Assembly: GCF_001899645.1 (NCBI RefSeq)
Contig: NZ_MKVV01000035.1
Coordinates: forward strand, 1-64,000
Direction: 5' to 3'
From: Pseudonocardia sp. 73-21
GTDB taxonomy: Bacteria > Actinomycetota > Actinomycetes > Mycobacteriales > Pseudonocardiaceae
Length of the DNA stretch: 64,000 nucleotides
The notes beneath the pieces are model-generated. The model ran no database searches and was not told where the DNA came from. It was given only the letters and a program-made list of their open reading frames with translations. This document shows, one piece after another, positions 4,995-21,717 of the stretch (position 1 is the stretch's first letter; every line of letters starts with the position of its first letter). Made by a program: the position numbers and the translations under genes.

Positions 4995-6077
<1,083 letters not shown>

Positions 6078-6138
6078 TCTCGTCCCCCGGCATCACAGCC
6101 CTCGTCCCGGCCGCTCCACCTGTCGAGGAGCACCCGGC

Positions 6139-6795
6139 ATGACCTGGGTCCTGGGCAACCTGCCGCTGATCGGCAGCCTGACCCTGCAGCACCTGGTGTT
6201 CGCCCTGATCCCGGTGGTGATCGGGCTCGTGCTCGCGATCCCGCTCGGCTGGCTGGCCAACCGCACCTCGTTCGGTCGCACGGTCACCATCAACGTGTCC
6301 GGGCTGCTCTACACCATTCCGTCGCTGGCCATCTTCGTCCTGCTGCCCGCGATCCTGGGCACGCAGATCCTCGATCCGGTCAACATCGTCGTCGCGCTGT
6401 CGGTGTACACGCTCGCGCTGCTGGTCCGCACGGTCGCCGATGCGCTCTCGGCGGTGCCGCCGATCGTCGTCAACTCGGCCACGGCCATGGGCTACAAGCC
6501 GGTGCGCCGGTTCCTGGCCGTCGAGCTGCCGCTGTCGGTGCCGGTGGTTCTGGCCGGCGTGCGGGTCGCCACGGTGTCGTCGATCAGCCTCGTCACCGTC
6601 GGCGCCACGGTCGGCTTCGGCGGGCTGGGCAAGATGTTCACCGACGGCTTCCAGCGGGGCATCACCGAGGAGGTCGTCGCGGGGATCGTGGTCGTGCTGG
6701 TGCTGGCGCTGGTCATCGACGGTCTGCTGCTGGCACTGGGTCGGGCGATCACCCCGTGGGACCGCATCACCGCCGCAGCGGGGAGAACGCGATGA
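6139..6795 (+). CDS. Quaternary-amine ABC importer permease 1 (OpuCB/ProW-like)
   Basis: The 218-aa inner-membrane permease has five or six hydrophobic segments and the BPD_transp_1 coupling loop (ATAMGYKPVRRFLAVELP, near residues 115-132, then GATVGFGGLG). It would pair with the permease encoded next to form the channel. The ATG has GAGGAG upstream (6125-6130). The stop codon overlaps the next start in ATGA, so the two permeases are translationally coupled. Confidence 0.93.
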   Translation: MTWVLGNLPLIGSLTLQHLVFALIPVVIGLVLAIPLGWLANRTSFGRTVTINVSGLLYTIPSLAIFVLLPAILGTQILDPVNIVVALSVYTLALLVRTVADALSAVPPIVVNSATAMGYKPVRRFLAVELPLSVPVVLAGVRVATVSSISLVTVGATVGFGGLGKMFTDGFQRGITEEVVAGIVVVLVLALVIDGLLLALGRAITPWDRITAAAGRTR

Positions 6796-7508
6796 ACTAC
6801 CTGAGCTACCTGTTCGACGCCACGCACTGGTCCGGCTCGCAGGGCATCCCGCAACGGCTGGTCGAGCACCTCGGGTACACCGCGCTGACGATGATCATCG
6901 CGCTGGTGATCGGCGTTCCGCTGGGGGCCTGGATCGGCCACACCGGCCGCGGCGGGTTCCTCGCCGTGGGCCTGGCCAACGGCCTGCGGGCCCTGCCCAC
7001 GCTGGGCCTGCTCATCCTGCTCGTCACGCTGATCGGGCTGGGCATCACCGGCCCGCTGATCGCGCTCGTCATCCTGGCGGTGCCCCCGATCCTCGCCGGC
7101 ACCTACGCGGGGGTCCGCAACGTCGACACCGCGATCGTCGACGCGGCGCGCGGCATGGGGATGCGGGGCCGCGAGATCCTGTTCCAGGTGGAGCTGCCCA
7201 ACGCCCTGCCCCTGATCATCGGCGGGGTCCGCAGCTCGGTGCTGCAGGTGATCTCCACCGCCACGATCGCCGCCTACGTGGCGCTGGGCGGGCTCGGCCG
7301 GTTCATCATCGACGGCCTCGCCATCCGCGACTTCCCCCAGATGGTGGCCGGTTCGGTACTGGTCGCCCTGCTCGCCATCGTGGCCGACCTGCTGCTCGCC
7401 GGGCTGCAGCAGCTGCTCGTCTCGCCCGGCCTGCAGGTGGCTCCCGCCGCCGGTCGGCGCCGGTTGCGCGCCGTTCCCGACTCCCGACCCGCCGCCCAGG
7501 CGGCCTGA
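6792..7508 (+). CDS. Quaternary-amine ABC importer permease 2 (OpuCD-like)
   Basis: The 238-aa second permease carries the same coupling-loop pattern (ARGMGMRGREILFQVELPNALP) and a GGLGRFIIDGL block. The C-terminal 25 residues are basic and cytoplasmic. Translation starts within the stop codon of the first permease, which points to stoichiometric synthesis of a permease heterodimer. The lipoprotein gene follows 23 nt later. Confidence 0.93.
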   Translation: MNYLSYLFDATHWSGSQGIPQRLVEHLGYTALTMIIALVIGVPLGAWIGHTGRGGFLAVGLANGLRALPTLGLLILLVTLIGLGITGPLIALVILAVPPILAGTYAGVRNVDTAIVDAARGMGMRGREILFQVELPNALPLIIGGVRSSVLQVISTATIAAYVALGGLGRFIIDGLAIRDFPQMVAGSVLVALLAIVADLLLAGLQQLLVSPGLQVAPAAGRRRLRAVPDSRPAAQAA

Positions 7509-7531
7509 GCCCCACCCCCGGAGGACCCCTG

Positions 7532-8461
7532 ATGAGACGCTCTCTGATCATTCGCACCACCGCGGTCGCAGCGACCGCCGCGCTCGCGCTCACCGCCTGT
7601 GGCGGCGGCGGGGGCAGCCCGCTGTCGAGCGGTTCCGGCGGCTCCGCCGCGCCGTCGTCGACGATCATCGTCGGCTCGGCCAACTTCACCGAGAACTCGA
7701 TCCTCGCCGAGATCTACGCGCAGGCGCTGGCGGCCAAGGGCATCACGGTGGAGAAGAAGCTCTCCATCGGCAGCCGGGAGGCCTACTACCCGGGCCTGCA
7801 GGACGGCTCGATCGACCTCATCCCCGAGTACACCGGCGTGCTGCTGCAGTACATCAACAAGGCGGCCACCGAGACCTCGCCCGACGACGTCTACGCCGCG
7901 CTGCAGAAGGCGCTGCCGCCCACCCTCGTCGTCACCGACAAGTCGGCGGCCGAGGACAAGGACGCCGTCGTGGTCACCAAGGAGACCGCGGCGAAGTACA
8001 ACGCGAAGTCCATCGCCGATCTCGCCCCCCACTGCGGGCAGATCACGTTCGGCGGCCCGCCGGAGTTCCAGACCCGCCCCGACGGCATCCCGGGCATCGC
8101 GAAGACCTACAACTGCACGTTCAAGGACTACAAGTCCCTCGACGCCGGCGGCCCGCTCACCATCGCGGCGCTGAAGAACGGTGATGTGCAGGCGGCCGAC
8201 ATCTTCACCACCGACGCCTCCATCCAGGCCGACGGGTTCGTGGCGCTGGAGGACCCGAAGAGCAACTTCGCGGCCCAGAACGTCGTCCCGCTGATCAACA
8301 AGGCGAAGGCGACGGACGCCGTCAAGCAGGTCCTCAACGCGGTGTCCGCGAAGCTCACCACCGACGAGCTGCTGACCCTGAACTCGACGGCGGCCGGCCC
8401 CACCAAGCCCGCCGTCGACGTCGTGGCGAAGGACTGGCTGACGAAGAACGGCCTGCTCTGA
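7532..8461 (+). CDS. Quaternary-amine-binding lipoprotein (OpuCC/OsmF-like)
   Basis: The 309-aa solute-binding protein is exported and lipid-anchored: a signal peptide ends in the lipobox LTAC at about residues 22-25, followed by a Gly/Ser linker. The mature part matches the OpuAC type, starting IIVGSANFTENSILAEIYAQ, with IPEYTGVLLQY as a ligand-proximal block. As the only binding protein in the operon it sets substrate range; glycine betaine, choline or carnitine are the family's ligands and the sequence alone does not decide. A GC-rich hairpin follows the stop. Confidence 0.93.
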   Translation: MRRSLIIRTTAVAATAALALTACGGGGGSPLSSGSGGSAAPSSTIIVGSANFTENSILAEIYAQALAAKGITVEKKLSIGSREAYYPGLQDGSIDLIPEYTGVLLQYINKAATETSPDDVYAALQKALPPTLVVTDKSAAEDKDAVVVTKETAAKYNAKSIADLAPHCGQITFGGPPEFQTRPDGIPGIAKTYNCTFKDYKSLDAGGPLTIAALKNGDVQAADIFTTDASIQADGFVALEDPKSNFAAQNVVPLINKAKATDAVKQVLNAVSAKLTTDELLTLNSTAAGPTKPAVDVVAKDWLTKNGLL

Positions 8462-8469
8462 TCGAGCGC

Positions 8470-8502
8470 GGGGACCCCGAACCCGAACGGTGCGGGGTCT
8501 CC
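8470..8502 (+). terminator. Hairpin after the importer operon
   Basis: GGGGACCCCG at 8470-8479 pairs with CGGGGTCTCC at 8493-8502 with a single mismatch and a 13-nt loop. No U-tract follows, as is common in actinomycetes. It could end the importer transcript or attenuate readthrough into the short ORF at 8538. Confidence 0.5.
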
Positions 8503-8537
8503 CGCATCGAACCGAAACGGCAAGGAGCTCGTCCACG

Positions 8538-8684
8538 ATGAAACGCATCCCCGGTCCGATCCCCGCGCCCGCCCCGCGGTCCTCGCCCACCGATGTGCTC
8601 GACCTCGACGTCGAGCAGGCGAAGAACGCGCAGTCGGACGCCCAGCCGGCCAGGAAGTGGCTGAAGGCGCAGGTCCTGGCATGA
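8538..8684 (+). CDS. Small 48-aa protein coupled to MOSC gene
   Basis: I do not recognise this protein. It starts with ATG 10 nt after AAGGAG and its TGA overlaps the next ATG (ATGA), so it is probably translated and coupled to the MOSC gene. The N-terminal half is proline rich (IPGPIPAPAP); the C-terminal half is charged and likely helical, ending RKWLKAQVLA. It has no signal peptide, no cysteine and no membrane segment. Possible roles are a small partner of the MOSC protein or a leader that tunes its translation. A longer GTG-started version from 8490 would run through the hairpin and is less likely. Confidence 0.55.
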   Translation: MKRIPGPIPAPAPRSSPTDVLDLDVEQAKNAQSDAQPARKWLKAQVLA

Positions 8685-9478
8685 CCGCGATCGGCAGCGT
8701 CGCCGCGCTCTACCGCTACCCGGTGAAGTCGATGCTGGGGGAGGCCCGGGAGGTCCTGGTGCTCGCCGCGGGTGGGGTGGAGGGCGACCGGGCGCTGGCC
8801 CTGCTCGACGTCGAGACCGGACGGGTGGCCACCGCCAAGCACCCGCGGCTGTGGCGGCGGCTGCTGCAGTTCAGCGCCACCCTCGACGGCGCGGGGGTGC
8901 ACATCACCGGGGCCGACGGCCGCACGGTCCAGGACGTCGACGGCGAGCTGTCGGCGGCGCTCGGCCGTGAGGTGCACCTCGCGGGCGTCCGCCCGCCCGG
9001 GGCCGAGGTGGAGCGCCCGGATCCCGAGGACGTGCTGGCGCACGGCGTCGACGCGGACGTGCCCTTCGCGACCCTGGAGATCGCGCAGGGCTCCACCGGC
9101 ACCACGTTCGTCGACTACGCGCCGGTGCACCTGATCACCACGGCCACGCTCGACCGGATCGGGGCCGAGGCCGTGCGCTACCGGCCCAACCTGGTGATCG
9201 CCACGCCGGATGGGGTGCCCTACGCGGAGAACGACTGGGTCGGCCGGGAGATCGTGGTCGGGGAGGTGCGCCTGCGCGGCATCCTGCCCACCCCGCGCTG
9301 CTCGGTGCCCACGCTGGAGCACGGCCCGCTGCCCCGCGCCGCCCACGCGGTGCGCACGGTGCTGGCGGAGAACCGCGTGGACGTCGAGGGGTTCGGGGTG
9401 CTGCCCTGCGCTGGGGTGTACGCCGAGGTGGTCAGCGGCGGCACCGTGCGCGCCGGGGACGCGGTCACGATCGGCTGA
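8681..9478 (+). CDS. MOSC domain-containing protein
   Basis: The 265-aa protein has the N-terminal beta-barrel (YRYPVKSMLGE, as in MOSC_N) and the MOSC domain with the conserved cysteine in PTPRCSVPT near residue 206. In relatives this cysteine handles the sulfur of molybdenum cofactor, as in mARC-type amidoxime reductases and cofactor sulfurase C-termini; the substrate here is unknown. No ferredoxin domain is attached, so an electron partner would have to be separate. It starts inside the stop codon of the 48-aa ORF. Confidence 0.88.
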   Translation: MTAIGSVAALYRYPVKSMLGEAREVLVLAAGGVEGDRALALLDVETGRVATAKHPRLWRRLLQFSATLDGAGVHITGADGRTVQDVDGELSAALGREVHLAGVRPPGAEVERPDPEDVLAHGVDADVPFATLEIAQGSTGTTFVDYAPVHLITTATLDRIGAEAVRYRPNLVIATPDGVPYAENDWVGREIVVGEVRLRGILPTPRCSVPTLEHGPLPRAAHAVRTVLAENRVDVEGFGVLPCAGVYAEVVSGGTVRAGDAVTIG

Positions 9479-9502
9479 GCGGGGGTGCGGCGACCCCGCG
9501 GT

Positions 9503-10010
9503 CGTGCTGGGCTGGACGTCACCGCTCCGGTGGTCTAGGGCGGCCTGGCCGGCATGCACATCGTCCGCGACGCCGAGGAGGACGCGCTGCCCCTGCGCGG
9601 GGCGGGCGTGAGCTGCCGCTGATGATCTGCGACCGCTCGTTCGCCTAGCCGGCCCTGGACCATCCGACGCGCGGCGCCACCGGCTCTCGGTGCAGCCCGG
9701 CCTGCCGCTGGTGCAGATCGGCTCGGACGGCGGTTTGCCGGCCGCGCCGGTGTCGCACGCGACGATCGAGATCGCGCCGGGCGAGCGGTTCGACGTGGAC
9801 GTGCACCTTGACGGCTTCCCCGTGCTGCGCCGCGGGTCGGGTGGGCGTCGCGGGTTCGACGCGGGCTGGAAGGACCCGCCCGACCTGCGGCCCGCCGAGA
9901 TCGTGGACGTCGCCGTGCGGTTCAGCGACCACGTGGGCCGGTTCGTCCTCCACCGCCACAGCCTCGAGCACGAGGACATGGCGATGACGGCGACGATCCG
10001 GACCGTCTGA
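9503..10010 (+). pseudogene. Multicopper oxidase remnant
   Basis: Pieces of a CotA/bilirubin-oxidase-like multicopper oxidase lie in several frames. Around 9540-9610 is GMHIVRDAEEDALPLRGA. After a frameshift comes ELPLMICDRSFA and a TAG stop at about 9648. From about 9690 the C-terminal cupredoxin follows: QIGSDGGLPAAP, IAPGERFDVDV, then LHRHSLEHEDMAM. In active enzymes the last block is HCH; here the type-1 copper cysteine is arginine (CGC, one transition from TGC). The N-terminal half is gone and an internal stretch is deleted, so this is a dead gene. Confidence 0.85.
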
Positions 10011-10014
10011 CCGG

Positions 10015-10527
10015 TCAGGTCTCGCAGGCCACGCCGTCGCCGTCCCGGTCGAGCTTGGAGGAGTAGCCCGGCTGGCCGGCATAGATCGGCGCGGCACCCG
10101 CAGCCTTCACGGCGGCGCAGTTGGCGTAGCTGGTGGCGGCGGGCTCGGGGGCGGCGACGACCGGCTCCGGGGCGGGTTTCGGCGCGGGTTTCGGGGCCGG
10201 CTTCGGCGCGGCGGCGAGTGGCTGAGGTGCTCTGCGGACGGTGGTCGGCACGGCGGCCGCGGCGGGGGCGACCGGAGCTTCGGTCACGACGGGTGCGGTG
10301 GTCGGGGCGACCGTGCTGGTGGGAGCGGCCGTCGTGGACGGGGCCGCCGACGTGGTCACCGGAGCGGCGGTGGCCGACGTGGCGGACGCGGCGGGGCTCA
10401 CCGCCGGTGCCGATCCGCAGGCCTGGGCCAGGGCCCCCACCGTCACGAGCCCGACGATGCGGGCGGCGAGCGGGAACCGGCGGGGTGCGGGGTGGAGAGT
10501 CAACGTCATCGTCGTCATCGTCGTCAT
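10015..10527 (-). CDS. Excalibur-domain lipoprotein
   Basis: The 170-aa protein has a signal sequence ending in LAQAC (lipobox-like, about residues 33-37), a long Ala/Thr/Pro linker with a PKPAPKPAPKPAP stretch suited to spanning the cell wall, and a C-terminal excalibur calcium-binding domain. That domain shows YANCAAVKAAG and the DxDxDGxxC loop DRDGDGVACE at the end. Its role is unknown but extracellular; the family is linked to surface nucleases and wall proteins. The start is uncertain because the first codons repeat (MTTMTTM), giving three ATGs within 18 nt. Confidence 0.85.
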   Translation of the reverse strand: MTTMTTMTLTLHPAPRRFPLAARIVGLVTVGALAQACGSAPAVSPAASATSATAAPVTTSAAPSTTAAPTSTVAPTTAPVVTEAPVAPAAAAVPTTVRRAPQPLAAAPKPAPKPAPKPAPEPVVAAPEPAATSYANCAAVKAAGAAPIYAGQPGYSSKLDRDGDGVACET

Positions 10528-10594
10528 CCCGGGGAGCGGAGGAGCGTCGCCGCGGGTGCGGCGTCGTACGTCCGCCTGTCGCCCGTGGCCGCCG

Positions 10595-10608
10595 TCCCGT
10601 TAACGGGA
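10595..10608. promoter_or_regulatory. 14-bp perfect palindrome upstream of excalibur gene
   Basis: TCCCGTTAACGGGA is a perfect dyad 68 bp upstream of the 10527 start. The flanks carry two direct copies of CGTCGTACGTC (10562-10572 and 10643-10653). The arrangement suggests a regulator-binding region for the lipoprotein gene. No regulator is encoded next to it. Confidence 0.4.
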
Positions 10609-10790
10609 TGAATGCCGCAAACATGATCCCATGACCGCAACCCGTCGTACGTCACGGCCCCCGCCGGGGCGTGGCGTGCAACCGGCCCCGACCAGGGCGC
10701 GGCGACAGGTCGTGGTCACCGCGCCATCGTGCGGCGGGAACCCGGGACCGGCTACGAGCAGGGATGACACATCCCCCGCCGCGCGCTGTG

Positions 10791-11789
10791 TCAGAGCGCG
10801 GGGATCACCGACTCCCCGTACGCCTCGATCGTCGACTCCCGCTCGTCGTGCATGGCGTAGATCGCGAACTGGTCCACGCCCAGCCGCTTCAGCTCCGCCA
10901 GCCGTTCCAGCTGGGCGGCGGGCGGACCGATGAGGCAGAACCGGTCGACCACCTCGTCGGGCACGAAGTTCGTGGACGTGTTGCCGGCGCGGCCGTGGTG
11001 GCTGTAGTCGTAGCCGTCGCGACCCTTGATGTAGCCGGTGAGCTCGGCCGGCACCATCGCCGACTCCGCGCCGTAGCGTGTGACGAGGTCGGCGACGTGG
11101 TTGCCGACCATGCCGCCGAACCAGCGGCACTGGTCGCGGGCGTGCTCGATGTCGTCGCCCACGTACGCGGGCGCGGCCACGCAGATCGTGATCGACGACG
11201 GGTCGCGGCCCGCCGCCTCCGCCGCGGCCCGCACGGTCCTCACCGTCCACTCCACCAGGTAGGGGTCGGCGAGCTGCAGGATGAACCCGTCGGCGCAGCG
11301 CCCGACCAGGTCGAGCGCCTTGGGCCCGTAGCCGGCCATCCACACCGGCAGGGACGCCCCCTGCGGCACCCACGGGATCTGGACGGTCGTGCTGCCGAGG
11401 TCCACCGGGCGCCCCTCGGCCAGCTCCCGGATGATGTGCATCGACTCCTCGAGCCGCGCCAGCGTCGTCGGCGGGCGGCCCTGCACGCGCATCGCGGAGT
11501 CGCCGCGGCCGATGCCGCAGACCGTCCGGTTGCCGAACATGTCGTTGAGCGTGGCGTGCAGCGACGCGATGACCGTCCAGTCGCGGGTGCCCGGGTTGGT
11601 CACCATCGGGCCGACCACCAGCCGGGAGGTCCGTTCCAGGATCCGGGAGTAGATGACGTAGGGCTCCTGCCACAGCACATGGGAGTCGAACGTCCAGCCG
11701 TGGGTGAAGCCCAGCTCCTCCGCGCGCACCATGAGGTCGACGACCGTCTGCGCGGGCGGGTCGGTCTGCAGCACGAGCCCGATGTCCAC
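10791..11789 (-). CDS. LLM-class F420-dependent oxidoreductase (CPS_4354-type)
   Basis: The 332-aa TIM-barrel protein is a luciferase-like monooxygenase/F420 oxidoreductase. It shows MDIGLVLQTDPP at the start, GPMVTNPGTRD, GIGRGDSAM (cofactor-binding) and VWMAGYGPKALDLVGR. This subfamily (as I recall TIGR03842) is often encoded beside hydantoinases, which matches: its GTG is 10 nt after the hydantoinase stop. It may reduce or oxidise a ring intermediate before hydrolysis, with F420 or FMN; the reaction is not established. Confidence 0.9.
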   Translation of the reverse strand: MDIGLVLQTDPPAQTVVDLMVRAEELGFTHGWTFDSHVLWQEPYVIYSRILERTSRLVVGPMVTNPGTRDWTVIASLHATLNDMFGNRTVCGIGRGDSAMRVQGRPPTTLARLEESMHIIRELAEGRPVDLGSTTVQIPWVPQGASLPVWMAGYGPKALDLVGRCADGFILQLADPYLVEWTVRTVRAAAEAAGRDPSSITICVAAPAYVGDDIEHARDQCRWFGGMVGNHVADLVTRYGAESAMVPAELTGYIKGRDGYDYSHHGRAGNTSTNFVPDEVVDRFCLIGPPAAQLERLAELKRLGVDQFAIYAMHDERESTIEAYGESVIPAL

Positions 11790-11799
11790 GGTGGCGCTC

Positions 11800-13194
11800 C
11801 TAGATCAGGTACTGGCAGGTGTCGCGGCGCAGGTAGGCGCCGTCGCCGGGCTTGCCGAGGTACTCACCCTTGTCGATGATCACGCGGCCGCGCGACAGCA
11901 CGGTCTCCACCGTGCCCGTGACCTGCTTGCCCTCGTAGGGGGAGTAGTCCACGGCCATGTGGTGCGTGGACGCCGAGAGCGTCTGCTCCGCGGCAGGGTC
12001 GTAGATCACCACGTCGGCGTCGGCGCCGGGCGCGATCGTGCCCTTGCGGGGGTGGAGGCCGAACATCTTCGCGGGCGTGGCGCAGGCCAGCTCGATCCAG
12101 CGCTGCCGCGAGATGTGCCCGTCGACGACGCCCTGGTGCAGCAGGTCCATCCGGTTCTCGACGCCGGGCATGCCGTTGGGGATCTTCGAGAAGTCGCCGA
12201 GGCCCATCTCCTTCTGCCCCTTGAAGCAGAACGGGCAGTGGTCGGTGGAGACCACGGAGAGGTCGTTGGTGCGCAGCCCCCGCCACAGGTTCGCCTGGTG
12301 CTCGGCCGGGCGCAGCGGCGTCGAGCAGACGTACTTGGCGCCCTCGAAGCCCGGACGCGCGAGGTCGTCGGTGGACAGGAACAGGTACTGCGGGCAGGTC
12401 TCGGCGAAGGCGTTGTACCCCTCGTCGCGGGCGCGGGTGATCTCGGCGAGGGCCTTGGTCGCGCTCAGGTGCACGATGTAGAGCGGCGCGCCGGCCACCT
12501 GGGCGAGCTTGATCGCCCGGTGGGTGGCCTCGGCCTCCAGCAGCTCGTGGCGCACCTCGCCGTGGTAGCGCGGGTCGGTCTGGCCGCGCTGCAGGGCCTG
12601 CTCCACCAGCACGTCGATGGCGATGCCGTTCTCGGCGTGCATCATCGTCAGCGCGCCGGTCTCGGCGCCCTTCTGCATGGCGCGCAGGATCTTGCCGTCG
12701 TCGGAGTAGAAGACGCCGGGGTAGGCCATGAACAGCTTGAAGCTGCTGACGCCCTCGCCGACGAGCGTCTCCATCTCCTTGAGGGAGGAGTCGTTGACGT
12801 CGGCGAGGATCATGTGGAACGCGTAGTCGATGGCGCAGTGGCCCTCGGCCTTGGCGTGCCAGGCGTCGAGGCCCTCGCGCAGCGTTCCGCCGACCTGCTG
12901 GATCGCGAAGTCGACGATCGTGGTGGTGCCGCCCCACGCCGCCGCGCGCGTGCCGGTCTCGAACGTGTCGGAGGCGAACGTGCCGCCGAAGGGCATCTCC
13001 ATGTGCGTGTGGCCGTCCACGCCGCCGGGGATGACGTACTTGCCGCCGGCGTCGATGACGGTGTCGGCCGTCCACCCGGCGGAGACCGACGGGGCGGCGA
13101 GGGCGACCACCTGCTCGCCCTCGATGAGCACGTCCGTGTGCAGCTCCTCAGCCGCGGTGATCACCAGCCCGTTGCGGATGAGCGTACGACTCAT
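11800..13194 (-). CDS. hydA: Dihydropyrimidinase / D-hydantoinase
   Basis: The 464-aa amidohydrolase opens the ring of dihydropyrimidines or 5-substituted hydantoins. Metal ligands are visible: HTH in GGVDGHTHMEMP (about residue 60), the carboxylated lysine in SSFKLFMAYPG (about 152), HAEN (near 184), IVHLSATKAL and STDHCPF. Family length is normal. With the neighbouring nitrilase-fold amidase and aminotransferase it forms a route from dihydropyrimidine via N-carbamoyl-beta-amino acid to the amino acid and its semialdehyde. It is third in the operon, behind an 88-bp gap holding a strong hairpin. Confidence 0.93.
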   Translation of the reverse strand: MSRTLIRNGLVITAAEELHTDVLIEGEQVVALAAPSVSAGWTADTVIDAGGKYVIPGGVDGHTHMEMPFGGTFASDTFETGTRAAAWGGTTTIVDFAIQQVGGTLREGLDAWHAKAEGHCAIDYAFHMILADVNDSSLKEMETLVGEGVSSFKLFMAYPGVFYSDDGKILRAMQKGAETGALTMMHAENGIAIDVLVEQALQRGQTDPRYHGEVRHELLEAEATHRAIKLAQVAGAPLYIVHLSATKALAEITRARDEGYNAFAETCPQYLFLSTDDLARPGFEGAKYVCSTPLRPAEHQANLWRGLRTNDLSVVSTDHCPFCFKGQKEMGLGDFSKIPNGMPGVENRMDLLHQGVVDGHISRQRWIELACATPAKMFGLHPRKGTIAPGADADVVIYDPAAEQTLSASTHHMAVDYSPYEGKQVTGTVETVLSRGRVIIDKGEYLGKPGDGAYLRRDTCQYLI

Positions 13195-15675: not shown

Positions 15676-15909
15676 ATGCGGACGACCATCGATGCGGCGG
15701 GCAGGCTGGTCATCCCGAAGCAGCTGCGCGACCGGCTGGGGCTGACGCCCGGGGAGGTCGACATCGAGGCCGATGGTGCGGACCTGCGTGTGCGACCGGT
15801 CGCCGACGACCATCTCGTCGAGGAGGACGGCTGGCTGCTGGTCCCGGCCTCCGGCACCCCGCTGACCGACGTCGACGTCCAGGCCCTCCGTGACGCCGAC
15901 CAGCGCTGA
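15676..15909 (+). CDS. AbrB/SpoVT-type antitoxin
   Basis: The 77-aa protein has the swapped-hairpin AbrB fold at its N-terminus: RTTIDAAGRLVIPKQLRDRLGLTPGE. The rest is acidic and would wrap the toxin. Its gene overlaps the PIN toxin gene by 20 nt, the standard VapBC-type layout. No ribosome site precedes the ATG, so the mRNA may be leaderless and the operon autoregulated, as is known for such pairs. Confidence 0.88.
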   Translation: MRTTIDAAGRLVIPKQLRDRLGLTPGEVDIEADGADLRVRPVADDHLVEEDGWLLVPASGTPLTDVDVQALRDADQR

Positions 15910-16318
15910 TCCGGAGTTCCTGGTCGACACCAGCGTGGCGGTCGCGCTGAGCTCCGAGGACCACCCGGGTCGCGCCCCCTGCCGTGCGGTGGTGGAGGGC
16001 CGGCGGATCGGTCTCGCGGGCCACGCCGCGTTCGAGACCTATTCCGTGCTGACCCGCCTGCCACCACCGGCGCGTCCGACGCCCGAAGCGGTCGCCCGGC
16101 TTCTCGCCCGCAACTTCCCGCACACCCGCTTCCTGCCGCCCGACGCCGCCGGCGCCCTGCTCGGTCGCCTCTCCGAGACGGGGATCAGCGGCGGCTCGGT
16201 GTACGACGCACTCGTCGGAGCCACCGCCGTCGCGGTGGGCGTCCCGCTGGTCACCCGCGACCGTCGGGCTCTCGGCACCTACCGTGCGTTGGACGTGGAC
16301 GTCGTTCTCGTCGGATGA
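15890..16318 (+). CDS. PIN-domain ribonuclease toxin (VapC-like)
   Basis: The 142-aa protein is a PIN-domain RNase. The acidic residues are present: D in FLVDTSVAV (about 13), E in AFETYSVL (about 47), D in GGSVYDALVGATA (about 105) and D in LVTRDRRALGTY (about 124). The family cleaves tRNA or rRNA when the antitoxin is degraded. The GTG start lies inside the antitoxin gene. This pair borders the FtsK-like cassette, a spot where accessory DNA could have entered. Confidence 0.9.
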   Translation: MTPTSADPEFLVDTSVAVALSSEDHPGRAPCRAVVEGRRIGLAGHAAFETYSVLTRLPPPARPTPEAVARLLARNFPHTRFLPPDAAGALLGRLSETGISGGSVYDALVGATAVAVGVPLVTRDRRALGTYRALDVDVVLVG

Positions 16319-16528: not shown

Positions 16529-16789
16529 ATGGCGAGTTTCGAAGAGGTCCGGGCCGGGATCGCGGTGGCCAACGACAAGGCCTCCGAGAGCCTCGGTGCC
16601 CTCCAGCAGGCGCACTCGGCACTGGAACAGGCCCAGGGCATGATGCTGCGGGTCTCGGAGGGCAGCGCGCAGGCCGACGTCTCCGAGGCCAACGGGCTGC
16701 TGGCCCAGGCCGTCGGCAGCATCGTCGAGGTGCAGCAGGCCGTCGCTGCCGCCATCCAGGCCGCCGAGGGCGTCGCGAGCCGGCTGTGA
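16529..16789 (+). CDS. Small helical-hairpin protein A of FtsK-like cassette
   Basis: I do not recognise a named family. The 86-aa protein is almost entirely helix-forming (Ala, Gln, Glu, Val) with a turn in the middle at SEGSAQADV, predicting a two-helix hairpin. Size and fold resemble WXG100/Esx proteins, but there is no WXG motif and no C-terminal YxxxD/E. It begins SFEEVRAGI, close to the SLDEVRATL start of the next protein, suggesting distant paralogy. Its stop overlaps the next GTG (GTGA). An anionic coiled-coil partner or substrate of the ATPase is the natural guess. Confidence 0.8.
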   Translation: MASFEEVRAGIAVANDKASESLGALQQAHSALEQAQGMMLRVSEGSAQADVSEANGLLAQAVGSIVEVQQAVAAAIQAAEGVASRL

Positions 16790-17040
16790 CCGGTTCGCTC
16801 GACGAGGTCCGGGCCACCCTCTACGCCGTCCTCGAGCTGCTCACCAGCGCCCAGCAGCACGCGGGCGCCGCCCGCACGAACATCGACGACGCCGTGGGGG
16901 TGCTCTCCGTGCTGGGCGAGAAGCACTCCGAGCCGCTGCCTCCGCCCGAGCTGGTGCGGGCGGTCGAGCGGCTGCAGGACGGGCTGGGCCTCATCGGGTC
17001 CGGCGCACAGCTCGTGGCCGACATCGGCGCGAGGATCTGA
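16786..17040 (+). CDS. Small helical-hairpin protein B of FtsK-like cassette
   Basis: This 84-aa protein is again two predicted helices, split by GEKHSEPLPPPEL. It has no WXG, no signal peptide and no membrane segment. Translation starts at GTG 16786 within the stop of protein A, so A and B are likely made in equal amounts and may pair, as EsxA/EsxB do. The stop lies 4 nt before the GTG of the large ATPase. Function unknown. Confidence 0.8.
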   Translation: MTGSLDEVRATLYAVLELLTSAQQHAGAARTNIDDAVGVLSVLGEKHSEPLPPPELVRAVERLQDGLGLIGSGAQLVADIGARI

Positions 17041-17044
17041 CCCG

Positions 17045-19792
17045 GTGATCCCGTTCATCGGCCGCCGCCGGCGCATCCGGGCGGCCTACGACGCCCTGTG
17101 CGACGCCATCGCGGCGGCGTCCGGAGCCTCGGACGCGGCCCGCGAGACGGCCCGCCGGGCCCATCTCGACGCGCTCGCGGAGCTGTGGCTGCGCCAGCGC
17201 GGGCTGGACGCGGCCGAGACCGACCCCGAGCTCCGGGCGCTGCTGCACAGCCCCGGCCTGGCCCACGTCGTCCGTGCCATCGACGAGGACCGGGCCGCCT
17301 CCACCCGCCCGGCCGACACCGCGCTGCCCGACCTCGACGAGCTCGTCGCCCGGGCCGCGCCCGGAGCGGCGGGGGAGGCCGGGCAGGGCTGGCTGGGCAA
17401 GGTCGGCGACATCGCGCTGACCGACGACGCCCCCGAGCTGTGGCGGGTCGGCGCCGGCCGCCTCGGCGTGTCGGCGCCGCCGTTCCCCGTGGCCGTGCCC
17501 CTTCTGGACGACGCGCACCTGCAGGTCAGCGCCGGTCCCGACGAGCGGGCGGCCGCCATCGCGCTCGTGGAGGGCCTGGTGATGCGGATCATGAGCACGT
17601 TCCGGCCCGGCTGCGTCCACGTCCACGTGTGGGACGTCGGGCAGCTCACCGGACCGCTGCCCGGCCTGCACCCGCTCACCCGCACCGGCCTGCTCACCGT
17701 GCACGACCCGAGCGGTCTCGAACGCCTGCTGGAGGACCTGTCGGACCGGATCCGCCGCGTCCACACCCGCGTCCTCGTCGACGGGCACCCGTCGTTGCGC
17801 GCCATGCAGGACATCACCGGTGAGCGCACCGAGCCGTGGGTGGTGGCGGTGCTGGTCGGCAACCGCCAGCCGCTGCGGGACGACGACCAGCGCCAGCTCC
17901 AGCGCGTGGCGAGCGGCGGCCTGGCCTGCGGCGTCCAGCTCGTGACGGTGGACGTGCCGATCGCCGTCGGTGCGTCGGTCGAGACGGTGGACATCGGCCG
18001 GCAGGACGCGGTGCGGACGTCGATGACGCAGAAGTACGTGGCGGTCGAGCTGGACCCCGTACTGCCCCCGGCCGAGGTCACCGAGGCCTGTCACGCGATC
18101 GCGGGCGCGCACGAGGAGCTGCGCAGCAGGCTCGGCACCTTCGACGACCTGCTGGTCCGGCCGGACAAGGTCGGAACGGAGTCGTCGGCGAAGGGGCTGC
18201 ACTTCCCCATCGGCTTCACCGACGGGCACCCGGTGCCGATGACGCTCGGCGACGCGTCGCCGCACGCCCTGGTCGGCGGTCCGAGCGGCTCGGGCAAGAC
18301 CAACTTCCTGCTCGCGATGATCGCCGCGCTCACCACGCGGTACCCGCCGGGGGAGCTCGAGCTGCATCTGCTCGACTTCAAGGAGGGCGTGTCGTTCGCC
18401 CAGTTCGCCCCGGGGCGGCGGAGCGAGACGTGGCTGCCGCAGGCGCGGCTGATCGGCATCAACATCAACACCGACCGCGAGTTCGGCCTCGCCCTGCTGC
18501 AGCACCTCGCGGACGAGATGCGCCGCCGCGCGGCCCTGGCGAAGGAGCACGAGGTCACGAAGCTCGAGGAGCTCCGTGACGAGGACGGTGTGGAGGCACT
18601 GCCGCGGATCGTCGCGGTGATCGACGAGTTCCAGTACCTGTTCGCCGAGAAGGACGCCGTCACGCGGGCCGCGATCGGCCTGCTGGAGGACGTCGCGCGA
18701 CGCGGGCGGTCGCAGGGCATCCACCTGGTGCTCGCGAGCCAGGACGTGTCGGGGATCGAGGCGTTCTGGGGTCGCCCCGCGATCTTCGAGCAGTTCGTGC
18801 TGCGGGTCGCGCTGCCGCGTGCCCGCCGGGTGCTCCACGAGCAGAACGATGCCGCGATGGACCTGCCCCGCTGGCACGCGGTGCTCAACCACGAGTCGGG
18901 CATGCGGCACGGCAACGAGATCATCCGCCTGCCGAACGCGAGCGTGAAGGGCACGTTGGACAAGGTGCAGCAGGACCTGCACAAGAAGTACGGCGACAAG
19001 AAGTCGAGGCCGCGGCTGTTCGACGGCAACCGCGCGCCGAAGATGGACGAGCTGGTCGACGGCGCCACGGTGCACGGGCTGCGCGTGCGGGTCGGCCAGA
19101 AGATCGACTTCTCGGGGACCGCCGCCACCGTCGGGTTGTCGGCGGTGCCCGGGCGCAACCTGGGAGTGTTCGGGGCCGGCACCCGCGACGCCGTGCGGGT
19201 GCTCGACGCGGCAGCGGCCTCGCTCGTGAGCCGCGAGGACTCCGGGGAACCGTCGGCCTTCGAGGCCGCCCACGGCGCGATCGTCCTGGCGCCGCTCGTC
19301 GCCGAGGCGGTGACGGCGGCCGAACGGCTGCAGTGCGCCTTCCGCGGCGCCGCCGAGATCGTCCGGCTCGACGGCTTCCGCGCCCGGGTGGAGGCGATCG
19401 CGGCAGAGGTGACCGCGCGGCTGGCCGGCAACGAGCGCGCGCCGCTGGTGCTGGTGGTCTACGCCGCCGACGCCGCGGACACGGCCCTGGACCGCACCGG
19501 CACCGAGGCGCTGCGGAAGATCATCCACTTCGGCCCGGAGGTCGGGGTGCACGTGCTGGGCTGGTGGCGCAGCGTGCCCCGGCTGAAGACCCTGCTGATG
19601 ATGGGGGCGGCGGTGGACGACCTGGGCGCGTGGGTGGCGTTGGACGTCCAGGGGACCGAGCTGCAGTCGCTGCTGCCCGGGATGCTGGTCACGTGGTCGC
19701 CCCGGCCCGGCCGTGGGTTCTTCTTCGACCGCAGCCAGCACTCCGCGCCCGAGGTGGTCATCGTCCCGGCGTCGGCGGAGGAGAAGGACTGA
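17045..19792 (+). CDS. Soluble FtsK/SpoIIIE-like ATPase, three modules
   Basis: The 915-aa protein appears to hold three FtsK/EccC-like modules. The central one (about 385-640) is canonical: Walker A GGPSGSGKT at 411-419, Walker B VIDEF with D527/E528, and a sensor-like LASQD. The first module (about 140-320; VEGLVMRIMSTF, HVWDVGQLTGPLPGL) and third (about 650-915; HVLGWWRSVPRLK, WSPRPGRGFFFD) have the fold's outline but no Walker A. One live plus two degenerate ATPase modules recalls EccC. No transmembrane segments are present, unlike FtsK, SpoIIIE or EccC. It probably moves DNA or protein, or remodels a complex, from the cytoplasm. Confidence 0.88.
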   Translation: MIPFIGRRRRIRAAYDALCDAIAAASGASDAARETARRAHLDALAELWLRQRGLDAAETDPELRALLHSPGLAHVVRAIDEDRAASTRPADTALPDLDELVARAAPGAAGEAGQGWLGKVGDIALTDDAPELWRVGAGRLGVSAPPFPVAVPLLDDAHLQVSAGPDERAAAIALVEGLVMRIMSTFRPGCVHVHVWDVGQLTGPLPGLHPLTRTGLLTVHDPSGLERLLEDLSDRIRRVHTRVLVDGHPSLRAMQDITGERTEPWVVAVLVGNRQPLRDDDQRQLQRVASGGLACGVQLVTVDVPIAVGASVETVDIGRQDAVRTSMTQKYVAVELDPVLPPAEVTEACHAIAGAHEELRSRLGTFDDLLVRPDKVGTESSAKGLHFPIGFTDGHPVPMTLGDASPHALVGGPSGSGKTNFLLAMIAALTTRYPPGELELHLLDFKEGVSFAQFAPGRRSETWLPQARLIGININTDREFGLALLQHLADEMRRRAALAKEHEVTKLEELRDEDGVEALPRIVAVIDEFQYLFAEKDAVTRAAIGLLEDVARRGRSQGIHLVLASQDVSGIEAFWGRPAIFEQFVLRVALPRARRVLHEQNDAAMDLPRWHAVLNHESGMRHGNEIIRLPNASVKGTLDKVQQDLHKKYGDKKSRPRLFDGNRAPKMDELVDGATVHGLRVRVGQKIDFSGTAATVGLSAVPGRNLGVFGAGTRDAVRVLDAAAASLVSREDSGEPSAFEAAHGAIVLAPLVAEAVTAAERLQCAFRGAAEIVRLDGFRARVEAIAAEVTARLAGNERAPLVLVVYAADAADTALDRTGTEALRKIIHFGPEVGVHVLGWWRSVPRLKTLLMMGAAVDDLGAWVALDVQGTELQSLLPGMLVTWSPRPGRGFFFDRSQHSAPEVVIVPASAEEKD

Positions 19793-20145
19793 TGGACGCC
19801 GCGCGCCGCTACAAGGCCCGGATCGCCGAGGTCACCGGGGGGCTCGACGCCCGCGCCGACCTCAACGCCGAGCGCGTCAAGGAGCTCGACAAGAGGGTCA
19901 AGGCGCTGGGCTGGCAGCTGCGCGAGGCCAGCGACCGGCACCTGCTGGCGCGCCTGTGTGTGGAGCTGGCCTGGGAGAGTGCTCTGGACGCCCTCTGGGT
20001 GGAGTCGTGGATCACGATGCGGCCGTTCCCGAAGCCCGACCCCTGGGCGAAGGCGTCGGATCTCGACACGCTGCTCGCCGCCGTGGAACAGCGGGCGGCC
20101 GAGCTGCGCTCCGAGGTGCAGGGGCGGCGGCTGCGCCGCTCCTGA
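19792..20145 (+). CDS. Small helical protein C of FtsK-like cassette
   Basis: The 117-aa protein starts one base inside the ATPase stop (TGATG), so it belongs to the same operon. It is predicted helical and charged: residues 1-45 look like a coiled coil (RVKELDKRVKALGWQLREA), followed by a Trp-rich part (LAWESALDALWVESWITMRP) and a basic C-terminus. No family is recognised. It could be an adaptor for the ATPase. Confidence 0.78.
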   Translation: MDAARRYKARIAEVTGGLDARADLNAERVKELDKRVKALGWQLREASDRHLLARLCVELAWESALDALWVESWITMRPFPKPDPWAKASDLDTLLAAVEQRAAELRSEVQGRRLRRS

Positions 20146-20172: not shown

Positions 20173-21717
20173 TCAGGTCGCGGTGATCACCAGCACCTGG
20201 CCCGTCGCCGCGTCGGTCTGCATCAGCACCACCCGTGGGCCCTTGCCGGTCGTGCGGGAGAGCGAGTTCACCGTGGCGGCGTCGACGGTGCGCACCGACG
20301 CGACGGTGAGCGTGGTCCTCGCCCCGCCCGGACCCGTGACGACGACGGTGGCGTCGGCCGTCAACGAGCCGGTGGCCACCGCGGAGTTCAGGGTGACCGC
20401 CGCCGTCCACGCGTCGCCGGCGCCGGGGTGCCAGCCGAGCGAACCCCGGCTCGCCGAGGCGGGCGCTGCGGGCACGCCGTCGGCGTCGTCGGCCGCCCGG
20501 GTCAGCGTGAGGGTGCCGCCCGGCAGGACGAGGCCGGTGGGGGCCTTCGCGGCCGGGGGCGGTGTGGTGACCGGCGGCGTCGCGGTGGGCGGGGTGGTGA
20601 CCGGCGGTGTGGTGACCGGCGGGGTGGTGACCGGCGGTGTGGTGACCGGAGGAGTCGTCACCGGAGGAGTCGTCACCGGAGGAGTCGTCACCGGAGGAGT
20701 CGTCACCGGAGGAGTCGTCACAGGGGGTGTGGTCACCGGCGGGGTCGTCACCGGAGGCGTCGTGACGGGCGGGGTGGTCGGCGGAACCGTCAGCGTCGTG
20801 ATGACCGGAGGGAGCGTCGCAGGCGGGGTCACCGGGGAGCTGGTGACCGGCGGGACCGGGATGCTGCCGACCACCTGCTGCTGCTCGGGCGACCCCGCTG
20901 CCGCGTTCTGCATATCCTGCGGGGTGGCCGGGCCCTGGATCCGGTCGGGCGCGGGATCGGGCGCAGGCGGGGCGGGGAAGTCGCCGGGGCCGTGCGGCGC
21001 GCTGAGCGAGGGCGTGGGCGGCACCGTCACCGGCAGCTTGTCGGTGGGGATCAGCCCGGTGGCGTCCTTGCCCGCGGCCGGGCGGGTGGCGCCGAGGTAG
21101 TCGTCGCCCTGGTAGCGCACGTACGCCAGCTGGACGGGCTTGCCGAACGTCGGCGCGTTGACCATGCGACCGCCACCGATGTAGAGCCCCACGTGGTGCA
21201 CACGGGTCGGGACGCCGTAGAACACCAGGTCGCCCGGCTGCAGCTCGGCGGTGTCGGGCACGTGCGGGCCCGCGTAGTACTGGGTGTGGGCCGTGCGCGG
21301 CAGCGTGATGCCCGCGTAGGCGTAGGCGGCGGTGGTGAGGCCGGAGCAGTCGAAGCCGGCTTCGCCCTTCTGAGGCCCGTCGCCGCCCCACACGTAGGGC
21401 AGCCCGCGCTGGGCCAGCGCGAACTCGATGGCCTCGGCGGCCGCCGATCCGGGCGGGGCGGTGGTGGTCACGAACGCGACCGGCGACAACGCCTGGTTGC
21501 TCGTCGCGATCGGGGTGGTGGAGGTGGCCGGGGCGCCGGTGGTGCCGACCGCGAACGGCGCGTGGACCTTCGGGGCGGTGGTCGCGTCGGCCGTGGTGAC
21601 GGCCGCGGGTGCGCCGAACGCAGCCGCAGCCGGAACGGCACCCACCGTGATGACACCCAGGGTCAGGGCCACGATCGAGGGACGCAGATACGGGGGTATC
21701 CGCCGTCCACTGGTCAC
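20173..21717 (-). CDS. NlpC/P60 peptidoglycan hydrolase with TTPPV repeats
   Basis: The 514-aa secreted protein has a signal peptide (about 1-38), an NlpC/P60 domain (about 90-215) and a long C-terminal region. Cys124 in GFDCSGL and His175 in HHVGLYIG are the catalytic dyad; the third polar position is Asn187 (MVNAP) where many members have His. Such enzymes cut the D-Glu to diaminopimelate bond. About a dozen TTPPV pentapeptides then form a wall-spanning rod before a roughly 120-residue terminal domain of unknown fold. GTG 21717 has GGGGAG upstream. Confidence 0.92.
   Translation of the reverse strand: MTSGRRIPPYLRPSIVALTLGVITVGAVPAAAAFGAPAAVTTADATTAPKVHAPFAVGTTGAPATSTTPIATSNQALSPVAFVTTTAPPGSAAAEAIEFALAQRGLPYVWGGDGPQKGEAGFDCSGLTTAAYAYAGITLPRTAHTQYYAGPHVPDTAELQPGDLVFYGVPTRVHHVGLYIGGGRMVNAPTFGKPVQLAYVRYQGDDYLGATRPAAGKDATGLIPTDKLPVTVPPTPSLSAPHGPGDFPAPPAPDPAPDRIQGPATPQDMQNAAAGSPEQQQVVGSIPVPPVTSSPVTPPATLPPVITTLTVPPTTPPVTTPPVTTPPVTTPPVTTPPVTTPPVTTPPVTTPPVTTPPVTTPPVTTPPVTTPPVTTPPTATPPVTTPPPAAKAPTGLVLPGGTLTLTRAADDADGVPAAPASASRGSLGWHPGAGDAWTAAVTLNSAVATGSLTADATVVVTGPGGARTTLTVASVRTVDAATVNSLSRTTGKGPRVVLMQTDAATGQVLVITAT
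20570..20800. repeat. 15-bp tandem repeat array coding TTPPV
   Basis: A 15-bp unit (plus-strand form GTGGTGACCGGCGGT or GTCGTCACCGGAGGA) is repeated in frame about a dozen times inside the NlpC/P60 gene. Two sub-types differ at synonymous positions, and a central block of near-identical GTCGTCACCGGAGGA copies points to recent expansion. Copy number should vary between strains. Confidence 0.9.

Follow-up and report, generated by a model that had tools for sequence, protein, structure and literature searches.

The window analyzed here, a stretch of 64,000 nt from Pseudonocardia sp. 73-21 (contig NZ_MKVV01000035.1, positions 1 to 64,000; contig C35 of the 111 contigs of the 7.09 Mb genome G000), encodes a cassette of four genes, A to D, whose large central protein, C, resembles EccC, the motor ATPase of type VII secretion systems (T7SS), but lacks its membrane segments. 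In the reading that we favor, to which we assign a likelihood just short of even, C is a soluble motor that derives from EccC and acts on protein clients, A and B serve as its adaptor or client, and D is a docking coil. The four genes form one chained run of open reading frames on the plus strand, with the following parts:

Gene A, 16529..16789, plus strand: 86 aa, predicted to form a helical hairpin and perhaps a divergent member of the WXG100 family.
Turn of A (residues 43-47), 16655..16669, plus strand: the WxG site of WXG100 proteins, here without W; limits taken from the AlphaFold2 helices.
Gene B, 16786..17040, plus strand: 84 aa, GTG start, paralogue of A.
Gene C, 17045..19792, plus strand: 915 aa, GTG start, EccC/EssC-like ATPase without transmembrane segments.
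N-terminal part of C (residues 1-104), 17045..17356, plus strand: long helices replacing the EccC membrane segments, from predicted fold and hydropathy.
Module I of C (residues 132-336), 17438..18052, plus strand: fold of the EccC DUF domain, without P-loop; structure match 8rin.
Module II of C (residues 385-628), 18197..18928, plus strand: intact ATPase.
Walker A of C, GPSGSGKT (residues 412-419), 18278..18301, plus strand: in module II.
Walker B region of C (residues 523-528, with D527 and E528), 18611..18628, plus strand.
Module III of C (residues 680-906), 19082..19762, plus strand: degenerate EccC-type ATPase fold without P-loop; matches 6jd5, 6j19 and 6tv1.
Gene D, 19792..20145, plus strand: 117 aa, Trp-rich, coiled coil predicted by eye, no membrane-like stretch.

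The last 4 nt of A coincide with the start of B, a gap of 4 nt separates B from C, and C and D have one base in common. An earlier, sequence-only reading of this DNA had described the four chained genes as a cassette, a description borne out by these coordinates and by the conservation of the unit shown below.

The predicted fold of the whole C chain has its top Foldseek matches in EccC and EssC (4nh0, E 6.1e-29), and EccC was also ranked first in a PDB profile search with C. In structure searches with single modules, module I matched the DUF domain of EccC5 and module III matched EccC-type ATPases, while the motor domains of FtsK and TcpA reached top or equal Z scores (24-28). The Pfam FtsK/SpoIIIE model matches C with an E value of 5.9e-21, and the NCBIfam EccCa model matches residues 239-568 with 1.5e-26 (93.4 bits, far below the cut-off of 509). 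The domain order, DUF-ATPase-ATPase, is the same as in EccC, with one conserved ATPase site. C is thus predicted to fold as an EccC-like protein with a DUF domain followed by two ATPase modules, the first live and the second degenerate, in agreement with the EccC likeness that the sequence-only reading had seen in an ATPase with an Esx-like partner. No DNA-guiding gamma domain was listed by Pfam for C up to an E value of 1, in a scan that was not a search aimed at this domain. The PADLOC matches on C (mad8, SspH, HerA and mad3) were rejected as identifications, as only the shared ATPase domain was covered.

The hydropathy of the entire C protein is not diagnostic, with peaks of up to 2.19 and values above 1.6 in 45 of 80 proteins, mostly in folded modules; therefore, the N-terminal parts were compared instead. 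Within the first 130 residues, a hydropathy of at least 1.6 was found in none of the 80 C proteins, as compared to 1.79 for the EccC control and 2.34 for the FtsK control. Hence, the membrane segments that would have spoken against the sequence-only reading were not seen at the N-terminus, and C likewise does not have the membrane N-terminus by which a DNA translocase such as FtsK is recognized.

To place the cassette in its taxonomic context, we analyzed 397 genomes of the order, in which relatives of C were recorded at E values of 1e-40 or better, with at most two candidates scored per genome. Relatives were found in 160 of these genomes. They were present in 73 of the 79 sampled genomes of the window's own family (f1), with a single match in 72 of the 73; in 78 genomes of a sister family (f3), with two matches, the maximum scored, in 77; and in nine further genomes outside both families. 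Named loci identify the window's family as Pseudonocardiaceae, and the sister family is probably Micromonosporaceae. Across the phylum, at a threshold of 1e-20, 14 of 296 sampled genomes gave a match, at least seven of them via ordinary EccC-type proteins. A scan of named genomes queried with a single C protein yielded no matches, whereas an alignment query did match, and the best 80 of its 494 matches are the named Pseudonocardiaceae loci; among these 80, the eleven top matches are all from Pseudonocardia.

In profile searches, A adjoins C in all 78 named loci that have upstream DNA, and B is present in 70 of the 78. In the remaining eight, all from Pseudonocardia, no B was found within 900 nt, and A alone precedes C. 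D is present in 80 of 80 loci, in 79 according to the profile search and, in addition, in locus L132 behind an inserted reading frame. This conservation is what the sequence-only reading had called for, since it regarded absence of the small genes beside homologs as evidence against itself. In L132 (Lentzea nigeriaca), the inserted frame lies on the opposite strand (10790-11287) and splits C from D, the sole such case among the 80 loci. A and D are the only neighbors present throughout the 78 loci, which carry 18 genus labels; the most widespread other neighbor family within eight genes, in a set of families without annotation, reaches 11 of the 18 labels and 27 loci. In the tree of C, six of the seven tested genera form single groups, and Amycolatopsis requires two changes. 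Taken together, the grouping by genus and the lack of any other constant neighbor suggest that Pseudonocardiaceae inherit the operon vertically, as a self-contained unit.

Sequence comparison identifies A and B as paralogues. A is predicted by AlphaFold2 to be a hairpin of two helices (residues 4-42 and 48-85; predicted local distance difference test, pLDDT, 92.6), which is the layout of WXG100 proteins. As the sequence-only reading had stated, both A and B of the window are devoid of WxG. Neither of them is matched by the WXG100 model PF06013 up to an E value of 1; weak matches exist for six of 53 A proteins of the family (best E 0.0091), and WXG100 is the top Pfam match for two A proteins of the sister family (E 0.011 and 0.037). 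We therefore compared sets of A sequences with a 24-row WXG100 profile by hhalign, with reversed profiles and 100 column shuffles as controls. The joint set (53 family and 32 sister-family proteins) aligned in register with a score of 26.1 and an hhalign probability of 52%; the reversed profiles scored 16.7-17.1, and none of the 100 shuffles reached 26.1. The family set alone scored 19.5 (reversed 16.7-17.3; shuffles as high, 0 of 100) and the sister-family set alone 22.2 (reversed 12.7-14.9; shuffles as high, 1 of 100), while B scored 16.6 against the WXG100 profile. These profile comparisons are suggestive of a descent of A from WXG100 proteins, and A is possibly a divergent member of that family.

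The motif W-D-G occurs at the hairpin turn in three of 44 A proteins of the sister family (one of the 45 loci is incomplete). The three carriers, L062, L240 and L241, all belong to the single genus g270. In genus g4, A is nearly identical between species, indicating strong constraint for a protein of 86 aa. Structure searches with A were uninformative, with no WXG100 chains among the 50 VIA matches listed, as was a comparison of the single A sequence with the Esx proteins of its own genome. DUF6244, the commonest weak Pfam match of A (19 of 53), was discarded as an assignment, given that it was found in one of 20 genomes, and there away from the cassette. For A, B and D, no match above the cut-offs was obtained with Pfam, NCBIfam or PADLOC. 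The C-terminal ends are well conserved: A ends with RL in 76 of 77 proteins, A of the sister family with TL in 39 of 44, and B with L in all 69. Because of this conservation, the C-terminal end of A and B may be a docking tag. The motif YxxxD/E, which at the C-terminus is an export signal of T7SS, is not present in the C-terminal parts of the translations of A and B of the window; B has YAVLE only near its N-terminus.

The relationships of C were assessed in an unrooted tree of central ATPase domains with 41 rows, in which several inner forks are unsettled and the CoCoNuT type is represented by a single row. A branch with values of 98/99 separates 31 rows, comprising the cassette and its kin, from 10 rows of canonical EccC-type proteins and FtsK. 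The larger side holds the cassette, the paralogues of family f3, seven Hsp70-linked rows, L080, L064, L008 and L009 (kind not assigned), and L249. C is thus grouped apart from canonical EccC, and the N-terminal hydropathy agrees, as it is at least 1.6 in one of the 31 rows (L079, 1.64) vs. nine of the 10, the tenth row lacking its N-terminus. In the nearest non-cassette group (88/91), the operon encodes Hsp70 in seven of seven cases, a J/TPR-type protein in six and GrpE in two; these seven rows had been picked after Hsp70 was seen beside several of them, and a scripted check then gave seven of seven. One of them, L248 on a plasmid of Rhodococcus pseudokoreensis (5466-12336), encodes in order Hsp70, DnaJ-TPR, GrpE, an EccC-like ATPase, a protein in the position of D whose C-terminal part contains a membrane-like stretch, and a hairpin resembling A. 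In L080 (7153-11154), a TerD domain is fused to the EccC-like ATPase, and a WXG100 protein (E 2.1e-7, above the Pfam cut-off) is encoded three genes on. L064 is the tree row nearest to L080, and both are Ter-type. L249, on a Caballeronia plasmid, is a locus of the order VWA, WXG100, FtsK, CARF, VWA, PP2C and kinase, in which the WXG100 neighbor also exceeds the Pfam cut-off (E 3.6e-7).

The D proteins differ between the lineages in their potential for membrane attachment. None of 79 family loci (L132 is outside this set) has a D protein with a membrane-like stretch, whereas the protein in this position in family f3 is longer and has two or three C-terminal membrane-like stretches in all 14 loci examined. 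Four of the Hsp70-linked kin were examined, and a single stretch near the end is present in L075, L076 and L248 and two are present in L079; the D-position proteins of L064 and L080 have none. The D proteins of the two families match weakly (scores of 23.9-26.2 vs. 12.2-12.8 for reversed profiles), and D of the window's family did not match the proteins that occupy its position in Hsp70-linked kin (12.2 vs. 13.2 reversed). Since the stretches were found in family f3 and in none of the 79 family loci, a membrane anchor present in relatives seems to be missing from D in the window's family. The earlier description of a system with no membrane channel therefore fits D of Pseudonocardiaceae, but not the sister family, whose D carries membrane-like segments.

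These observations can be combined into a working model of a machine that would be derived from the motor end of a T7SS and be soluble in Pseudonocardiaceae. C would assemble as a ring and pull or remodel a polypeptide, with an A/B dimer, or A alone, as adaptor or client. The tail of EsxB docks on EccC; likewise, the conserved C-terminal end of A and B might dock on the degenerate module III, and the N-terminal helices of C might be the docking site for D. With its membrane-like segments, D of the sister family may position the motor at the membrane; without them, the motor of the window's family would be active in the cytosol or act on an unlinked partner. The Hsp70, J/TPR and GrpE genes in operons of the kin favor protein clients, and the EccC-type modules, the hairpin partner or partners and the chaperone-linked kin together point to polypeptides as the substrate; its near-universal presence and vertical inheritance suggest a core role. 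The live module, considered on its own, is compatible with a DNA substrate, and sets of Hsp70, GrpE and J/TPR proteins occur in conflict systems according to parts of PMC7159879, which slightly lowers the probability of a motor for protein clients and raises that of a defense role. A more far-reaching version, which we regard as doubtful, holds that a motor derived from a T7SS now serves actinomycetes as a housekeeping polypeptide remodeler of the chaperone type: a ring of EccC without transmembrane segments that is fed by Esx-like hairpin adaptors, that in sister lineages is coupled to a dedicated Hsp70, a J/TPR protein and in some cases GrpE and is tethered to the membrane by D, and that is fully soluble in the window's family.

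Among the alternatives, it is unlikely that the cassette is an accessory to a resident T7SS, in which C and D would select, hold or pass A/B-like clients to an ESX channel encoded elsewhere. Some ESX systems include soluble EccCb proteins, C carries the DUF and ATPase folds of EccC, EccD was found in 64 of 64 family genomes tested and WXG100 proteins in 20 of 20. However, the EccD genomes comprise 58 carriers of the cassette and all six non-carriers tested, so that its presence does not separate the two. Moreover, beyond A, B and D no unannotated neighbor family exceeds 11 of the 18 genus labels, A and B of the window lack the C-terminal YxxxD/E, and sister operons carry Hsp70. That the cassette pumps DNA in the segregation of chromosomes or plasmids appears very unlikely: the FtsK/SpoIIIE match and the FtsK and TcpA scores of single modules would fit, but sequence and whole-chain structure searches put EccC and EssC first, the flanking modules are EccC-type, and the kin are linked to chaperones.

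The third alternative, which we judge to be distinctly unlikely, is an anti-phage or stress-defense cassette; published work has proposed this role for the WXG100/EssC-like module found in CoCoNuT and TerY-P loci. C is on the same side of the 98/99 branch as the ATPase of the VWA/CARF/kinase/phosphatase locus L249, kin on Rhodococcus plasmids adjoin Hsp70-GrpE or TerD genes, and parts of PMC7159879 place Hsp70-GrpE-J/TPR sets in actinobacterial conflict systems. In contrast, C is present in 73 of the 79 family genomes and its genera cluster in the tree, no additional gene family accompanies all copies, and the PADLOC matches are limited to the shared ATPase domain. The sequence-only reading had offered a DNA or protein pump, defense or segregation as options; of these, the protein pump fits best, a DNA pump and segregation find little specific support, and defense has been proposed for relatives but would have to be served here by a near-universal, vertically inherited gene set.

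Several other genes were recorded near the cassette or its relatives. Immediately upstream in the window (15676-16318) are two small overlapping genes that by eye resemble those for an antitoxin of the AbrB type and a toxin of the PIN type. On the other side, a minus-strand gene (20173-21717) for an NlpC/P60-like, secreted-looking protein with a long TPPVT repeat adjoins the cassette (also by eye). The second C paralogue of family f3 lacks a recognizable P-loop in three of four cases examined (L059, L082 and L073) and thus forms a pseudo-ATPase branch. On one side these three paralogues are flanked by genes that resemble ftsH and folE (by eye), and on the other by an operon that encodes an AAA_10 ATPase as well as an M23 peptidase, the domains of which were scanned in L083.

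If the proposed motor for protein clients is real, an Esx-EccC pair would not need a secretion channel in order to function, and the effect of the motor on its substrate could be separated from the role of the membrane pore, a hard question for T7SS; the cassette would be a small soluble set suited to reconstitution. The Hsp70-linked kin tie type VII motors to chaperones. Irrespective of mechanism, it is a gap in knowledge that 73 of the 79 genomes sampled from a single actinomycete family retain a gene set without assigned function.

With the ESX T7SS the cassette shares the DUF domain, ATPase modules and a small hairpin pair. It differs in that C has no membrane segment and one ATPase module fewer than the three of EccC, that EccD is encoded on another contig, and that A and B of the window lack WxG and the C-terminal YxxxD/E. 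The resident T7SS of the genome (EccB, a subtilase, EccC, an Esx pair and EccD) is separate from the cassette: its EccD, the single match in the genome, is on contig C16, the window being on C35. EccB and mycosin were found at C16 as well. The systems T7SSc to T7SSj, as covered in part of PMC11217815, likewise combine an EssC-like ATPase and WXG100 proteins with varying partner sets, but are described there with further membrane components; the terms Pseudonocardia and Micromonospora were not found in the main text of that paper.

A literature search retrieved no name for the cassette, in line with the sequence-only reading, which knew of none, and no description of the minimal core-genome form, of the chaperone-linked kin or of the membrane and soluble states of D; relatives, however, are in print. 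Passages of PMC11090510 describe an EssC-like ATPase in extended type III-A CoCoNuT operons, in which the middle of three ATPase domains alone is predicted to be live, the N-terminus is a coiled coil replacing the membrane segments, and two WXG100 proteins occur, one of them without WxG. They propose defensive secretion by a different mechanism and credit a 2012 study for stand-alone copies. Part of PMC3482391 reports "solo WXG domains" beside a three-domain YueA-like ATPase, again with only the middle domain live, as mobile T7SS. The cassette resembles the CoCoNuT/TerY-P module, as far as these passages describe it, in its three modules with a live middle one, its helical N-terminus and its possibly WXG100-type partners, and the CoCoNuT-type locus L249 shares its side of the 98/99 branch. 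It resembles the solo WXG sets, in the form given there, in the live middle module and the possibly WXG-type partner. Judged by sequence, the cassette thus appears to be of the same kind as these already predicted modules of WXG100 proteins and EssC-like ATPases without transmembrane segments. Unlike CoCoNuT and TerY-P loci, it is limited to four genes and includes no VWA, CARF or kinase gene; a Pfam scan of the four genes gave no VWA, CARF or coiled-coil nuclease domain, and the conserved unit is A-(B)-C-D only. Furthermore, the cassette is chromosomal and near-universal in its family, both A and B of the window lack WxG, unlike the CoCoNuT pair in the passages cited, and its apparent vertical inheritance in actinomycetes contrasts with the mobile T7SS versions in that part of PMC3482391.

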